Source of the DNA: a virus
Reading direction: 5' to 3' (one strand)
DNA length: 34,769 nucleotides
IMG/VR virus record: IMGVR_UViG_3300021511_000021
Span: 1-34,769 of that record
Notes under the pieces: generated by a model
The model's database searches: none
What the model saw: the letters and a program-made list of their open reading frames with translations, nothing else
Told to the model about the DNA's origin: nothing
Position numbers and translations under genes: made by a program
Shown: positions 10,249 to 33,371 of the stretch, in pieces
How positions within the stretch are numbered: position 1 is the first letter of the stretch
Layout: the number at the start of each line of letters is the position of its first letter

Positions 10249-10644
10249 ATGGCAAGTAAGTCAAGCAGTGGAATAAGTCTCAGCACCATCATTTTTTTAG
10301 TGGTTATGTACAATGTTATATTTGACGACGACGAAAATGAAGTGGAAATTATTGAGCAGGATACAATTGTCCAAACAGAGCCAGCTCCGGGTGGCTCAAC
10401 CATTAAAGATCAACTCAACAAGATTGGTGTTGAACTCAAAGAAGTTGGTAAACAGTTAAAGGATGAAGTGAGCGTTGCAGTTACTGATATTAAAAAGGAG
10501 TTTGAAGAAACTCCCTCGGAGCCGAAAGAGGAAGCCTCCGAAAAGAAAGAAGAAATACTGACAACAGAACCTGAGGATGAAGAGGAAACTCTTAAACCCT
10601 TAGACAACCCACCCGATACATCAAACGGTATGAAGAAACTGTAA
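10249..10644 (+). CDS. Small membrane-anchored acidic protein
   Basis: A 131-residue protein, not recognised as a family. Residues 9 to 25 (ISLSTIIFLVVMYNVIF) form one membrane segment without a cleavage site; the rest is very acidic and helical, with many Glu/Lys pairs and a Pro-rich end. The predicted topology is a membrane anchor with a long charged tail. It has a near-perfect ribosome site (AAAGGAGG). It is the first gene after the plus-strand promoter and ends 10 bases before the radical SAM gene, whose ribosome site begins at its stop codon. It may localise partners at the membrane, but no function can be read. Confidence 0.75.
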   Translation: MASKSSSGISLSTIIFLVVMYNVIFDDDENEVEIIEQDTIVQTEPAPGGSTIKDQLNKIGVELKEVGKQLKDEVSVAVTDIKKEFEETPSEPKEEASEKKEEILTTEPEDEEETLKPLDNPPDTSNGMKKL

Positions 10645-10654
10645 AGGAGTTACT

Positions 10655-11653
10655 TTGAAAAAATTTGTTATGAAGTTTGATAAACGGTTTGCAAATGAAG
10701 ACTATGAGTTGCTATTTAACACATCAACGGGTTTGGAGATACTTCAAGGTGTCAATGGAAAAGAAGATCCTTTCTCGTTATATCTCCCCTCATTGCTTGA
10801 TATTGGGGTGATGGGCACCTGTAAAAATAAATGCCCATTCTGTTATCAAGGGTATGGCCAAACACCGAATATGAAGCTATCAGACTTCATGAGCATCATT
10901 GATGCTGTTCATCATCATACAAATCAAGTTGCTTTGGGTGGACGCGGTGATCCAAACAAACACCCTCAATTTGCCGATATGTTAGAGTATTGCCGAAAAC
11001 ACAACGTTGTACCAAACTATACGACAAGCGGGATTGATCTTACGGATGATGAAATTGAAGCATCTGCAATGTGTGGGGCTGTCGCTGTAAGCGATTATGA
11101 GCAAGATTTCACATATGATGCCCTGCAACGATTCATGGATGCAGGTATTAAAACAAACATCCACCAGATCTTCGACGCCAAGACGTTTCACAAATGTACA
11201 TCGTTGATTAAAGGTATTGATTACTGGCAAGGGAGAGTTGATATTAACCAACTAAATGCTGTAATATTTCTCCTATTTAAACCACAGGGCGGTGGAAAAC
11301 AAATGAAGTTCCTGCAACCAACACAAATACAATTGGAGATGATGGCAAATAGAATCCTCGAACCCGAATGTAAATTCAAGGTGGGTATGGATAGCTGTTT
11401 AGCAAATCATGTTGTAAAATATGTAACTCCAACGCCACTGCAAGCAATGTCAATTGATACTTGTGAAGCAGCCCGAATGTCAGGATATATAACACCTGAT
11501 ATGAAATTCAAACCATGTAGTTTTGCGGAAAGTAGTACAGAAGTTCACTTAGGATGGGACGAGATTTCAGCAATATGGAATACGTCCGATCCGTTCAATT
11601 TCTTTAGAGATGTATTAAAAGAAAAATCCAATTCCTGTCCGATAGGATTCTGA
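10655..11653 (+). CDS. Radical SAM enzyme with SPASM/twitch-like C-terminus
   Basis: A 332-residue protein with the radical SAM cluster motif CKNKCPFC (Cys56, Cys60, Cys63; C-x3-C-x2-C) and a following GGRGDPNKHPQF at the place of the family's GGEP motif for SAM binding. The C-terminal part has further cysteines in DSC, DTC, KPC and the terminal NSCPIGF. The spacing CEAARMSGYIT to KPC resembles the twitch/SPASM domain that holds auxiliary iron-sulfur clusters. Such enzymes often modify peptides. It starts at TTG, chosen because an AAAGGAG site is correctly spaced; the next ATG is codon 6. It is followed at once by two genes with the same N-terminal tag, which are the obvious candidate substrates. 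Confidence 0.85.
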   Translation: MKKFVMKFDKRFANEDYELLFNTSTGLEILQGVNGKEDPFSLYLPSLLDIGVMGTCKNKCPFCYQGYGQTPNMKLSDFMSIIDAVHHHTNQVALGGRGDPNKHPQFADMLEYCRKHNVVPNYTTSGIDLTDDEIEASAMCGAVAVSDYEQDFTYDALQRFMDAGIKTNIHQIFDAKTFHKCTSLIKGIDYWQGRVDINQLNAVIFLLFKPQGGGKQMKFLQPTQIQLEMMANRILEPECKFKVGMDSCLANHVVKYVTPTPLQAMSIDTCEAARMSGYITPDMKFKPCSFAESSTEVHLGWDEISAIWNTSDPFNFFRDVLKEKSNSCPIGF

Positions 11654-11672
11654 CAGGCAAGAGAGGCGTAAC

Positions 11673-12068
11673 ATGAAGATAAAAGTCGACTTTGTAACAA
11701 ATTCAAGTTCATCATCATTTGTAGTCATGGGATCACATTTAAATACGGATGATGTAAGTGAAAAAGCATGGGGAAAACTTGCTGCGAAATTAGAAAAAGA
11801 AGGCGATGTTTTAACCCCAGCGGAAATCGTTGAAGAGTTCCCGGAATACATTGATTCCATGATTGCAGGATCGGATCTTGAGTACTCATTTGGGTATGAC
11901 AATTATGACAACTATTCAGAAGGTGGAATGATAGGAATACCATATACCGAAATGAGGGATGATGAAACCATGGAAGAATTTAAAGGCAGAGTCAAGATTC
12001 AAATTAAAAATGTGTTCGGATTTTTAACAGAAGTTGGACACATTGAAGAATGTTGGATGGATGGATAA
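11673..12068 (+). CDS. TNSSSSSF-tag protein A, candidate radical SAM substrate
   Basis: A 131-residue acidic protein beginning MKIKVDFVTNSSSSSFVV. The next gene begins with almost the same 16 residues. After the tag comes a helical acidic region, a Tyr/Asp/Asn-rich stretch (EYSFGYDNYDNYSEGG) and a C-terminal ECWMDG with the only Cys. The body is unrelated to that of the next protein. The tag resembles an N-terminal motif seen on many otherwise unlike prokaryotic proteins, whose meaning I do not know. It starts 19 bases after the radical SAM stop with a GAGAGG ribosome site. I infer that the tag is recognised or modified by the radical SAM enzyme. Confidence 0.75.
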   Translation: MKIKVDFVTNSSSSSFVVMGSHLNTDDVSEKAWGKLAAKLEKEGDVLTPAEIVEEFPEYIDSMIAGSDLEYSFGYDNYDNYSEGGMIGIPYTEMRDDETMEEFKGRVKIQIKNVFGFLTEVGHIEECWMDG

Positions 12069-12584
12069 ATGAAAATCAAAGCTGATTTTGTAACCAATTC
12101 AAGTTCGTCTTCATTCATCGTTGCTTTTCCAAAAAAGGTTAAACATCTTAGAGAAATCGAAGCTGTTATTGCAAACCCTCAACAAGCACAAACAGTTTTT
12201 AAAGATGCAACGAAACAAAAAGCTCTACGATCATCAAGCCCAAAACTCAAGAAAAAAATAGCAACCGAAATAACTCATGGATTTATTGATGATCCGCGGT
12301 TCAAAGATAGTTGGGATGAAGATAGGAAATTTGCAATGCGGGAAGGCGAAGACGAACGATCTATGGATGAACACCCACAATGGCGAGATATATTTTGGGA
12401 TGAACGTCGTTTAAAACAAAATTCGTTTGCAAATGTAGTTGCAAGTGAGTTTTTGGAAAAGGTGCCTGATGGCTATTACATTTACACTTTCGAGTATGGC
12501 GACGAAGACGGTGCGTACTTTTCGGAAATGGAGCACGGAAATATCTTCCATAATCTCATACATTTCCGCGTCAGTAAACACTAG
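12069..12584 (+). CDS. TNSSSSSF-tag protein B, candidate radical SAM substrate
   Basis: A 171-residue protein beginning MKIKADFVTNSSSSSFIV. The tag shares 15 of its first 16 residues with the preceding protein. The body is basic then acidic, with WDEDRKFAMREGEDE, and ends with a conserved-looking segment YTFEYGDEDGAYFSEMEHG and a final HFRVSKH. There is no cysteine. The start codon directly follows the stop of the previous gene (TAAATG), indicating translational coupling. Over the first 18 codons the two genes differ by eight synonymous and two conservative changes, so the tag is kept at protein level. Function unknown; its place after the radical SAM gene suggests a modified protein. Confidence 0.75.
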   Translation: MKIKADFVTNSSSSSFIVAFPKKVKHLREIEAVIANPQQAQTVFKDATKQKALRSSSPKLKKKIATEITHGFIDDPRFKDSWDEDRKFAMREGEDERSMDEHPQWRDIFWDERRLKQNSFANVVASEFLEKVPDGYYIYTFEYGDEDGAYFSEMEHGNIFHNLIHFRVSKH

Positions 12585-13205: not shown

Positions 13206-13697
13206 ATGACAAAAAAAGGTTTAGCACTGGCAATCGTGATTATCGTATTGGGGATCTTCATGCTCACTGGCTTTGCAGATGCAGGAACCAAGGCTGTTGA
13301 AATTAACCGGTTTCTGGCAGTCGACCCGCTCGGTCCCAACAACTATGACCTTCAAACGTTGCGGATCGATGATCCTGAAAATCCATTTATAAGCATTTAT
13401 GTTACACACATCATTGCCACAGGATTTCAGTTTTCAGACCCCAGCAATGTTTCAATCGCATGTCGTCTGACATCTCCAGTTCCCATGAAAGATGGAAAAC
13501 AGGTCATTAACACAACGGTGAATCATAACGTTGCGAATTTCAAAAAATCCATCGGAAGTAAAGTCATGAGGATTTCAAGAGCATATGACAAGGGAAAGAA
13601 CGTCCTTGTTTATAGAGTTTATACAACGAAACTCTTTGACGGATCTTTAAAACATTCGTTATCGGTTGTTCCGTTGGGAATGCCCCTTACCCCCTAA
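13206..13697 (+). CDS. CreA-family periplasmic protein
   Basis: A 163-residue protein with an N-terminal signal peptide (basic MTKKG, hydrophobic core to about residue 20, likely cut after ADA at 26). The mature part matches the CreA family: ISIYVTHI, VSIACRLTSPVPMKDG, FKKSIGSKVMRISRAYD, KNVLVYRVYTTKLFDGSLK and LSVVPLG. CreA is a conserved periplasmic protein of proteobacteria with poorly understood function. Family length is about 155 to 160 residues, so this copy is complete. It is the last gene of the accessory operon and is followed by a strong terminator. A phage copy is unusual and may act on the host envelope. The lone Cys in IACR is kept as in the family. Confidence 0.85.
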   Translation: MTKKGLALAIVIIVLGIFMLTGFADAGTKAVEINRFLAVDPLGPNNYDLQTLRIDDPENPFISIYVTHIIATGFQFSDPSNVSIACRLTSPVPMKDGKQVINTTVNHNVANFKKSIGSKVMRISRAYDKGKNVLVYRVYTTKLFDGSLKHSLSVVPLGMPLTP

Positions 13698-24726: not shown

Positions 24727-25323
24727 TTAAATAATTTTTGTCTTCGGATCTTTAGCCTTCTCTTTTGCAGCAGCTTGATGTGAAGCACTGTGTTTGCCAA
24801 GCCTTGCTTTTGCTTTGGCAATTTTCTGCTCACTCTTCTTAATCTCAGAGGCAATTTTTGCTTTACATTTATCAGGTTTTGGTGATTGTGAGCAATTCTT
24901 AACTGAGCTCTTCAAGAGTGCAATTGTTCTTTTTGCAACTTCAACGTCAGCAGCAACAAGGCATGCATCTCTTGATTTCCCAATTGCCAAAACACCACAA
25001 CGTCTTTGTCTTTCAGCCGCCATAGCTTTTAAACTTCTGTAAATTACCCATCCAGGAGGCGACAAAAGAATCATTCCAAGAATAGTTTTTAATGTGCCTT
25101 CTTTTATAAACTGTTCATTTAAAGAATGAACTGCAAATCTTTCATTTACAATTTCTGCTGCTTGCTCATCCAAATGAACAATTTTACCATCCATTAAAAG
25201 AGCTTTGATCTGTGCATCACTGGCATCTTCTTTGATAAAATTTAACATTTGAAGTTTTGCCGCTTTTGATAATTGCGATTCAACAACAATATTGGCAGCA
25301 ATAACTCTTAGATCTCTATCCAT
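24727..25323 (-). CDS. Paralog 1 of three LxE / Cys-hairpin membrane proteins
   Basis: 198 residues. Residues 1 to 67 form a domain shared with the next two genes (SKAAKLQMLNFIKEDASDAQ, LLMDGKIVHLDEQAAEIVNE), ending at LNE (68-70). A hydrophobic segment follows (LKTILGMILLSPPGWVIY). The rest is a basic helical hairpin with cysteines at 109, 121, 144 and 153 (C-x11-C-x22-C-x8-C). L-x-E is the cut pattern of T4-type prohead proteases, so the N-terminal domain may be a head-targeting propeptide; this is inference. The C-terminus is highly basic. Not a recognised family. The three genes are separated by 15 to 21 bases and follow one another on the minus strand. Confidence 0.72.
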   Translation of the reverse strand: MDRDLRVIAANIVVESQLSKAAKLQMLNFIKEDASDAQIKALLMDGKIVHLDEQAAEIVNERFAVHSLNEQFIKEGTLKTILGMILLSPPGWVIYRSLKAMAAERQRRCGVLAIGKSRDACLVAADVEVAKRTIALLKSSVKNCSQSPKPDKCKAKIASEIKKSEQKIAKAKARLGKHSASHQAAAKEKAKDPKTKII

Positions 25324-25338
25324 TATAATAACTCCCTT

Positions 25339-25908
25339 TTACTTCATTCCGCCATGCCCAAAACTTCTTCTTGCACGTTGGTGTCTTTCTTTATATTTAT
25401 CAATTGTTCTCTTTTGTTTAGCAATAAGTTTTCCAACTTTCATTTCACATCTAGCAGGAACTTTACTCTTACTGCATTGTTTTTGAGCCTTTTGATAAAC
25501 TTTCATTTTCTCTTGCTCGGCAGCCATTTGATATTTGGTCATACATGCTTTATATTCACCACCTTTCTTTCCTTTACATGCAGCACCAGCAGCTGTCATT
25601 CGCTTCTTATATGACTTAATTGCCATTGATGTTGCCCATGTTAAAAGGGTTGCAACAGCAAATCCACCAGCAGCAACTCCCATCGCTACAATAGGATCTT
25701 CTTGTAAATGACTTACCGCAAACCTATCGTTGACGATTTCTTCAGCTTGTTCATCAAGATGAACGATTCCACCATCCATCATAAGAGCTTTGATTTGAGC
25801 ATCTGAAGCATCTTCCTTTATAAAATTTAACATTTGAATTTTTGCTGCTTTTGATAATTCTGATTCCATTACATAAAAGGCAGCGTGTAACCTCAATGTT
25901 TTATCCAT
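25339..25908 (-). CDS. Paralog 2 of three LxE / Cys-hairpin membrane proteins
   Basis: 189 residues. The N-terminal 67 residues are about 75% identical to paralog 1 and end at LQE (68-70). A strong membrane segment follows (MGVAAGGFAVATLLTWATSMA), then a basic helical part with cysteines at 111, 122, 145 and 154 (C-x10-C-x22-C-x8-C). It ends in a basic HQRARRSFGHGGMK. The conserved cysteines without other metal ligands suggest two disulfides, so the C-terminal part may lie in an oxidising compartment. The hydrophobic part differs in sequence from that of the paralogs, so the module between propeptide and hairpin is variable. Confidence 0.72.
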   Translation of the reverse strand: MDKTLRLHAAFYVMESELSKAAKIQMLNFIKEDASDAQIKALMMDGGIVHLDEQAEEIVNDRFAVSHLQEDPIVAMGVAAGGFAVATLLTWATSMAIKSYKKRMTAAGAACKGKKGGEYKACMTKYQMAAEQEKMKVYQKAQKQCSKSKVPARCEMKVGKLIAKQKRTIDKYKERHQRARRSFGHGGMK

Positions 25909-25929
25909 TATAATATACCCTCTCTTTGT

Positions 25930-26508
25930 TTAGTCTCTTGTTGCAACAATCGGTGCTGGTTCTTCACCAGGCGTATTTCCTTTTGAAATCTCTTTATTCA
26001 ATTTTTCTTGTTGCTTCTTTGCTCTGGCTTGTTCTTTTGCAAGTTGGTCTTTCATAACAACTTTACATCTCTTTGGATTATTTACTTGATCGCAATTAGC
26101 CATAGCATTCTTTATAATCTCAATTTTCTTTAATGCATAACCCAATCTGGCTTTCGCCATACATGCATCTCGGTCTTTTGATATTTTTTGTAAACCACAT
26201 TGTCGATGAGCATCCGAAAAGATTCCTGCCAACTTTCTCCATATGGGTAATACACCAACCATCTTGCCAAGAATTTGTAAAAACATACCAGACTCATTTA
26301 AATGCGGATACCCTTCAAATCTGTCATTTACAATTTCTTCAGCTTGCTCATCTAATTGAACAACTCTACCGTCCATTAACAGAGCTTTAATTTGAGCGTC
26401 TGAAGCATCTTCTTTAATGAACTTTATAAGATGCTCCTTTACGTTCTTTGATGCTGAACTTGTAACCACTTTGTAAGCAGCAACTAATCTTAATTGTTTA
26501 CTCATCAT
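25930..26508 (-). CDS. Paralog 3 of three LxE / Cys-hairpin membrane proteins
   Basis: 192 residues, first of the three in transcription order. The N-terminal domain shares the invariant block FIKEDASDAQIKAL and LDEQAEEIVNDRF, ending at LNE (70-72), aligned with the paralogs. A moderately hydrophobic stretch follows (FLQILGKMVGVLPIWRKLAG), then cysteines at 104, 116, 139 and 148 (C-x11-C-x22-C-x8-C). The tail is charged, with a Pro-rich end (TPGEEPAPI). The N-terminus is less similar than between paralogs 1 and 2, so this is the oldest split. The tandem set, with different membrane parts, suggests duplication followed by divergence. Possible roles are virion internal proteins injected into the cell, or membrane effectors. 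Confidence 0.72.
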   Translation of the reverse strand: MMSKQLRLVAAYKVVTSSASKNVKEHLIKFIKEDASDAQIKALLMDGRVVQLDEQAEEIVNDRFEGYPHLNESGMFLQILGKMVGVLPIWRKLAGIFSDAHRQCGLQKISKDRDACMAKARLGYALKKIEIIKNAMANCDQVNNPKRCKVVMKDQLAKEQARAKKQQEKLNKEISKGNTPGEEPAPIVATRD

Positions 26509-31811: not shown

Positions 31812-33371
31812 TTATAATGATCCTCCATCGTTAATAGTCCATCCTTGACCTTCTAATGATGCTTTACCTGCTGCTGCTGCTCCTCCCCCTGTGTACTTAG
31901 AAGTATTCATGGTAAGAGTAACACCAGTTTTAACAGTTTGTGCTCCCCATCCAATCAGAAGTAAATCGTAATTAACAGTAGACAAGTCATTAGTTACGAA
32001 GAAGTTAGTAGCATTAGTTACATTTGATACATTCCATCCGCCTATATCTTGCTCAAATGCAGAGGCACCTTGGAACATACTACTAATGTTAACCATACTT
32101 GTAGTATCCCAACCACCAATATCCTGATTGAATGCCTGGTTCCAATAAAACATATAACTAAAGGATGTTATATTTGATACATCCCAAGTAGCTATACTTG
32201 AGTTATTAAAAGTAGATTGACGGAACATACTATGTAAACTGGTCAAGCTGGGACTAAAAGTCCAGTTGGCTACACTACTATTAAAGGCACTAGTACTACG
32301 GAACATTTGATAAAAATCAAGACAAGACGAAACATCCCATTGATCCAAATCCTGGTTGAATGTTCCGGCAGAATAAAACATCTCCCTCATATTCTCAACA
32401 TTAGATACATTCCATCCGCCAATATCCCGATTAAAGGATCCACAACTATAAAACATCCGCTCCATATTAATTGCGCTGGCAGTATTCCAATTTGAACAAT
32501 CTGGATTACTTGCGCCGCTTTGTGCAAACATAAGATTAAAGTTAGTTACGTCAGAAACATCCCAATTAAGCATACTGAAATTAGAGGGAGATCCATTAAA
32601 CATTCCCCTCATATTTGTTGCACTTGGAGTTCTCCAATCACTCAAATCCTTAGTCCAAGATGCAGTATTATAAAACATATACTGGAAGTTTTCCACATTT
32701 GATACATCCCATGATGAAAGATTATATCTCATGGCATAGCACTGATAAAACATAGATGATAAATTTGTAGCACTTGAAGTATCCCATGAATCTATATCTT
32801 GATTAAAAAGAAGACACCTATAAAACATACTTTGCATGGTGGTTATATTTGATGTATCCCACCCACTAATATCTTCATTAAGCTTTTCACATTCATAAAA
32901 CATCCATGATAAATCAGTGATATTAGAAATGTCCCAATCCCCAATTGCAGATGCTGTGTTTAATTCATCACAACTATGGAAAAATAAAGTAAGAGATGTT
33001 GTGTTACTTAAATCAGGAACATCAATTGCAGTGATAGCAGTAAGTGAAGCACATCCGGTAAATGCACCTCCATCAATGGGTTGAAAAATTCCCCATTGTT
33101 TTATATCTGTTATCAAAGTTCTTGATAATGTATCTGACTGAAAACTCCATCCCATCATGAGTCCGGAAATGGTTATATCATAGGTTCCGGGCGTTGAATA
33201 TGAATGGTATTTTTCAGAATCAGAATATGAAGTAATGTGATCCGATGTATCATCACCCCAATCTACTATTAAATCATACTGTCCATTAGAAACAAGTGGC
33301 AATCTGAATGTGGTTGTAATATCTGCCGTAAATATAAAAGGCCTTTTATTAACCAAAAACGATATTGCCAT
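31812..33371 (-). CDS. BspA/DUF285 repeat adhesin, putative receptor-binding protein
   Basis: 519 residues. It starts MAISFLVNKRPFIF, then a PKD-like beta domain (DLIVDWGDDTSDHI, YSTPGTYDITISG). From about residue 146 come 13 repeats of about 25 residues with the pattern W-D-x-S-x-x-x-x-x-x-x-M-F plus F-N-x-D-I, typical of the DUF285/BspA leucine-rich-like family, usually found in bacterial surface proteins. In phages such repeats probably form a beta-solenoid that binds host surface. The end has GWGAQTV, TLTMNTSKYTGGGAAAAGKASLE and QGWTINDGG, a usual cap of the family. Ribosome site AAGAGGATAATTA. Family assignment firm; receptor role inferred. Confidence 0.85.
   Translation of the reverse strand: MAISFLVNKRPFIFTADITTTFRLPLVSNGQYDLIVDWGDDTSDHITSYSDSEKYHSYSTPGTYDITISGLMMGWSFQSDTLSRTLITDIKQWGIFQPIDGGAFTGCASLTAITAIDVPDLSNTTSLTLFFHSCDELNTASAIGDWDISNITDLSWMFYECEKLNEDISGWDTSNITTMQSMFYRCLLFNQDIDSWDTSSATNLSSMFYQCYAMRYNLSSWDVSNVENFQYMFYNTASWTKDLSDWRTPSATNMRGMFNGSPSNFSMLNWDVSDVTNFNLMFAQSGASNPDCSNWNTASAINMERMFYSCGSFNRDIGGWNVSNVENMREMFYSAGTFNQDLDQWDVSSCLDFYQMFRSTSAFNSSVANWTFSPSLTSLHSMFRQSTFNNSSIATWDVSNITSFSYMFYWNQAFNQDIGGWDTTSMVNISSMFQGASAFEQDIGGWNVSNVTNATNFFVTNDLSTVNYDLLLIGWGAQTVKTGVTLTMNTSKYTGGGAAAAGKASLEGQGWTINDGGSL
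31998..32940 (-). repeat. Thirteen tandem 75-base DUF285 repeat units
   Basis: Coding repeats whose tryptophans fall at residues 146, 171, 196, 221, 246, 270, 295, 320, 345, 370, 396, 421 and 446, so the unit is 25 codons with two single-residue indels. The units differ strongly in DNA, so they are old rather than recent copies. Such arrays can grow or shrink by recombination and change host range. Confidence 0.88.

Follow-up and report, generated by a model that had tools for sequence, protein, structure and literature searches.

The solved enzymes closest by profile comparison to the one described here are SuiB, SkfB and PqqE (5v1q, E 8e-14), which work on precursor peptides and combine a radical SAM core with a C-terminal auxiliary-cluster region. 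A further radical SAM/SPASM enzyme, anSME, targets a serine or cysteine in a short motif of folded proteins; this motif, C/S-x-P-x-R, is internal and confined to one enzyme family. The system analysed here shares the core and C-terminal region with SuiB, SkfB and PqqE but differs in its partners, which are folded proteins of ~80–670 aa instead of short precursors and carry a shared N-terminal tag, with up to several unrelated partners per enzyme. This tag also differs from the anSME motif in being N-terminal, proline-free and present on many families. No RRE-like domain was recognised in the system, and the bodies of the tagged proteins are mostly unrelated. Because the partners are full-size proteins rather than short precursors with leader and core, no RiPP assignment was made despite the adjacent maturase-like gene. 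In vWA-MoxR FtsH ternary conflict systems, a radical SAM gene has been proposed as modifier of a peptide effector (Kaur et al. 2020, PMC7159879); these systems, compared here by their description only, have a different core ATPase, and the parts of that paper that describe them name no such tag. A survey of open-access full text returned no description of the tag peptide or of a radical SAM enzyme combined with a STAND NTPase.

The locus lies in a viral sequence of 34,769 nucleotides (IMG/VR record IMGVR_UViG_3300021511_000021), the whole of which is referred to as the window. A preliminary description had proposed that two genes for tagged proteins follow a radical SAM gene, next to genes for a membrane-anchored acidic protein and a secreted CreA homologue. 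The three open reading frames were confirmed at the coordinates given in Table 1, as were both neighbours. The enzyme gene has a TTG start with AGGAG on its 5' side, the ATG of tagged protein 2 abuts the TAA of tagged protein 1, and both tagged proteins begin with MKIKxDFVTNSSSSSF. The PHROGs families matched by the enzyme (phrog_7293) and tagged protein 2 (phrog_7397) are both annotated as "unknown function". The envelope-related role at which the neighbours had been taken to hint was not borne out, as CreA-like genes were found in just 12 of 103 tag-chosen viral loci and did not figure among the recurrent neighbours in cellular loci, whose recurring partner is an Avs-like STAND NTPase. Relatives of the small acidic protein were encoded in 16 of these 103 loci.

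Table 1. Coordinates of the enzyme, the tagged proteins, their tags and two neighbouring genes in the window.
Feature	Coordinates	Strand	Evidence or remark
rSAM-T, radical SAM enzyme, 332 aa	10655..11653	+	Cx3Cx2C, twitch-like C-terminus; phrog_7293, E 3e-32
Tagged protein 1, 131 aa, MKIKVDFVTNSSSSSFVV, body family 4	11673..12068	+	ORF
Tagged protein 2, 171 aa, MKIKADFVTNSSSSSFIV, body family 0	12069..12584	+	phrog_7397, E 1e-15
N-terminal tag 1, MKIKVDFVTNSSSSSF	11673..11720	+	In tagged protein 1
N-terminal tag 2, MKIKADFVTNSSSSSF	12069..12116	+	In tagged protein 2
Small acidic protein, N-terminal hydrophobic stretch	10249..10644	+	Context; upstream of rSAM-T, same gene run
CreA-like protein, signal-like N-terminus	13206..13697	+	Context; PF05981, E 1e-21

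The window enzyme belongs to a single coherent family, here termed rSAM-T. Its place in the radical SAM superfamily is given by the Pfam Radical_SAM model (PF04055, E 7e-7, slightly over the curated cut-off), by the Cx3Cx2C motif (C56, C60 and C63) and by fold matches. The AF2 model (pLDDT 95) had SuiB with its precursor, PqqE and SkfB as top PDB matches (5v1t, E 2e-12), and anSME as a weaker one (4k37, E 8e-8). The C-terminus, previously called SPASM/twitch-like, is twitch-like: it holds the family-invariant cysteines C248, C270, C288 and C328, assigned to putative auxiliary clusters, and lacks the final cysteines of a full SPASM domain. The tail of cellular relatives is longer and of the SPASM type, with TIGR04085 matched by 13 of 21 representatives, and sister clades show the spaced cluster-motif variants CxCx3Cx3C and Cx7Cx6C. 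The window enzyme reached no curated cut-off of the NCBIfam rSAM equivalogs (best score, 36.5 bits against 380), and no model in Pfam or NCBIfam describes the enzyme-tag system. Identity with viperin was rejected, given 13.9 bits with NF038283 against a cut-off of 180 and generic similarity in PADLOC-DB 2.0. An in-frame TGA in the radical SAM gene of one locus (L245) proved to be the terminal stop. In another (L058:3783-6128, +), the rSAM-T frame encodes 782 aa, and an intein-like insert that ends in HDHLFVTTNGIISHNC lies after the cluster motif and before the remaining enzyme. Several tag-chosen phage loci contain a second, distinct radical SAM family (NWLLTRxCNLxCxYC), mostly with an SMC/Rad50-like gene nearby (L018:1038-2105, L024:2737-3756, L062:7131-8165, L068:8124-9185, L093:3553-4602 and L100:2330-3397).

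The tag was defined as M-K-[IV]-[KR]-x-D-F-V-T-N-S-S-S-[ST]-S-F at the protein start and searched as a degenerate DNA pattern against viral contigs and one genome per species, the genome loci being those among the matches listed; rSAM-T was detected in the loci with a profile built from nine enzymes. The association of tag and enzyme family suggested from the window held when starting from either partner, and the recurrence of the tag elsewhere was substantiated by enzyme-tag pairs in phages, bacteria and archaea. Starting from the tag, rSAM-T was found within 2 kb in 73 of 98 viral loci and in 82 of 106 genome loci among the matches listed, always on the same strand and with a median gap of 25 bases in viruses and 3 bases in these genomes. 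Of 24 viral records lacking a local copy, 14 encoded the enzyme elsewhere, including every record of at least 100 kb; of the 24 genomes that contributed the remaining tag loci among the matches listed, 15 encoded it at some position, several times just past the 8-kb block.

Genomes drawn regardless of tags rarely encoded rSAM-T (9/1,233; 5/249, 0/394, 1/294 and 3/296). The 249 drawn Lachnospiraceae genomes included three with the standard tag, all of which had the enzyme, and none of the 244 enzyme-less genomes had the tag; the reversed pattern did not occur in this set. Such coincidence would arise by chance with a probability of ~4e-6, and chance is excluded as the source of the association. 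Starting from the enzyme, a tag, in some cases variant, was found near rSAM-T in eight of the nine loci from drawn genomes. The same was true of all three annotated plasmids (from Rhodobacter, Agrobacterium and Rhizobium), each with exactly one tag match in 473–861 kb, in the gene adjoining the enzyme. Among the best 80 viral loci, 49 carried a tag, against 0/80 for the reversed-sequence control; the 31 tagless pieces were 5–13-kb fragments, mostly of short records. Some viral records of 38–52 kb have the enzyme and zero tags (e.g. L391, L396, L417 and L427). Distal tags are real, since phages KP15 and RB16 each have two tags with the enzyme ~20 kb or more away. A NERD-helicase-like protein was also recurrent in tag loci of Clostridia and Olsenella (L138, L145, L198 and L218), the copy in L145 matching the PADLOC model RTasNERD-Hel with E 2e-60.

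The tag is N-terminal: in 397 of 406 instances, its D/G residue occupies codon 6. Position 4, which was unconstrained in the search pattern, was R or K in 273 of 273. As this pattern had fixed several positions, conservation was reassessed in a set of 67 distinct tags located via the enzyme; acceptance required position 2 to be basic and at least 7 of the 11 core positions to match, so that the set is less biased rather than unbiased. In it, N10, S12 and T/S9 were present in 67/67 and S11 in 66/67, F7 in 63, and position 13 was S in 63 and T in 4, and positions 14 and 15 varied (S, T, A, C, V, N, F). The constant core is therefore T-N-S-S-S, flanked by two aromatic residues. The serine run, earlier put forward as a candidate target, is thus conserved unevenly: S11 and S12 are near-invariant and position 13 is Ser or Thr, unlike the variable positions 14 and 15. 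A Ser/Cys at position 15 was rejected as the target: tag-chosen sites had S in 262 and C in 10, but enzyme-chosen tags also had A, N, T and F.

Codon usage shows that the tag is a protein feature under protein-level selection. Among 335 tags, SSSSS was encoded by 212 distinct 15-mers, with 31 of the 32 TCN/AGY patterns in use. Tags of the same locus on different bodies differed per codon by 0.54 synonymous versus 0.05 non-synonymous changes, their serine codons switched box in 585 of 1406 cases, and no such pair was free of synonymous differences.

The tag further varies with the class of the enzyme. K4 was found in 44/44 tags accompanying Cx3Cx2CYQ enzymes, the class of the window, R4 in 129/130 with Cx7Cx6CYQ enzymes and T14 in 17/17 with CYR enzymes; where loci had been picked for the G6 dialect, each of the 25 enzymes that could be classified was CYK. 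Position 4 agreed in 283/283 same-locus tag pairs on different bodies, against an expectation of 0.61, and this agreement across unrelated bodies despite diverged codons fits one shared reader. Part of the matching may reflect shared descent, because the dialects track enzyme clades. As to the earlier suggestion that the tag is a recognition or modification site, the co-variation fits recognition by the enzyme, and modification appears well supported in outline.

In at least 24 genome loci, the enzyme-tag pair stands beside an Avs-like STAND NTPase, usually in the order STAND NTPase, small protein, tagged protein and rSAM-T (examples are L122, L124, L126, L128, L140, L149, L150, L155, L161, L205, L210 and L227). 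Among the matches listed, all such loci with a complete classified enzyme were of the CYR class, and they spanned Bacillota, Bacteroidota, archaea and others, which is consistent with mobility. The small protein lacks the tag but is paralogous to the tagged protein (hhalign 97%). The NTPase matches the Avs2 models of PADLOC (E to 9e-32) and has the Walker B motif hhhhDG[LI]NE wherever complete, and its N-terminal domains vary (trypsin-like, DUF4062 or PNP); in L210, an Avs1a/LmuA-like MBL gene lies upstream. These operons, not the window, thus show the Avs architecture of a STAND core with a variable N-terminal effector. They differ from Avs2 in the length of the NTPase, ~820–1,060 aa where complete versus 1,375–1,576 aa for the Avs2 models, and in that the small-protein pair and rSAM-T come after it. 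In PADLOC-DB 2.0, only the NTPase and effector parts were matched, and rSAM-T and the tagged proteins had nothing beyond generic viperin similarity. As the NTPase is Avs-like with varied effector domains, these two parts suggest that the operons serve anti-phage defence.

We propose, with a probability of roughly 0.75, that the three window genes form a protein-maturation cassette, in which rSAM-T would recognise the 16-residue tag at the N-terminus of the two small phage proteins and change it by radical chemistry, most likely within T9-N10-S11-S12-S13 and about N10-S12. This reading draws on the enzyme-tag partnership, the N-terminal position, the selection at protein level, the dialect matching and the kinship to peptide-modifying SPASM/twitch enzymes; from these we infer the covalent modification, its site and a role in conflict. 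In the STAND operons, the tagged and modified protein would probably be a sensor or adaptor of the defence system, since the sister enzyme shares the operon with the Avs-like NTPase and an untagged paralogue. For the tagged proteins of the phage, the analogy points to a probable part in conflict with the host or with other phages, which is the weakest step of the explanation. A variant of this role, compatible with the cassette, is phage counter-defence, in which the tagged proteins would serve as decoys for host STAND systems or antagonise them. The location of sister enzymes in Avs-like operons speaks for it, but body families 0 and 4 of the phage proteins show no detectable relationship to the tagged protein in these operons, and the enzyme classes differ between the two settings, so that we hold it to be unlikely, if worth keeping in mind.

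The bodies bear on whether the tag is instead a leader only, with the enzyme modifying residues of the body as in the leader/core precursors of RiPPs, a reading that has the activity of SuiB, SkfB and PqqE on precursor peptides in its favour. At least 60 body families carry the tag, and most have no detectable kinship to one another. The two window bodies, earlier described as unrelated, are indeed not detectably related, but elsewhere some families are remotely so: profile comparison linked solely families 1, 2, 3 and 13 with 21, and the reversed control none. A common fold for all bodies was discarded, as few families are connected. In 67 representatives, no motif common to the bodies was found and every invariant or nearly invariant column fell inside the tag, which is thus the sole sequence common to the candidate substrates and therefore the natural modification site. 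With mostly unrelated bodies, a well-folded modelled body, and a constancy of N10, S11 and S12 exceeding the need of mere docking, a leader-only function is improbable.

In the AF2 model of tagged protein 2 (pLDDT 91), residues 1–8 are mostly below 50 and residues 13–20 form a strand, so that the tag is predicted to start as a free end and enter the first strand; tag residues within this strand could be conserved partly for folding. A fold search of the PDB and BFVD with this confident model returned no match, and tagged protein 2 (12069-12584) possibly has a new fold. Known domains follow the tag in a few cases, two tagged proteins having BspA-type leucine-rich repeats and one a BRCT domain.

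Alternatively, the tag might bring proteins together at the enzyme or at some shared location, with the enzyme acting on a small molecule or other target. The presence of the enzyme without a tag in some phage pieces and the generic similarity to viperins, which act on nucleotides, are in line with this, but the twitch/SPASM tail, the kinship with peptide-modifying enzymes and the viperin score far below cut-off point the other way, and we give such docking as little credence as a leader-only function. A DNA- or RNA-level element mimicking a peptide motif, such as a translation enhancer or a recombination or gene-conversion cassette, would explain a near-identical peptide repeated at gene starts in several copies per locus, but it is contradicted by the codon data and was dismissed.

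On the maturation reading, a motif first noticed by eye now has a dedicated enzyme family, and thereby a group of function-unknown proteins gains a common biochemical hypothesis. If the tag is modified, folded proteins would be singled out for radical SAM modification by a portable N-terminal tag, a chemistry that might also serve for labelling. Radical chemistry on a protein partner would then join the STAND-type defence architecture. It is a tentative, somewhat doubtful extension that one radical SAM family places the same new N-terminal mark on dozens of unrelated proteins, both of phages and of STAND-based immunity, as a general form of protein tagging in which the modified tag is a common mark that is read in phage-host conflict.

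Two other regions of the window, both on the minus strand, contain repeats. Three successive genes at 24727-26508 encode proteins of 189–198 aa with similar N-terminal halves (FIKEDASDAQIKALxMDG) and are tandem paralogues, and the protein encoded at 31812-33371 has many MFxxCxxFNxDIxxWDxSxVTNMxxMF-like repeats, similar to DUF285-type surface repeats.
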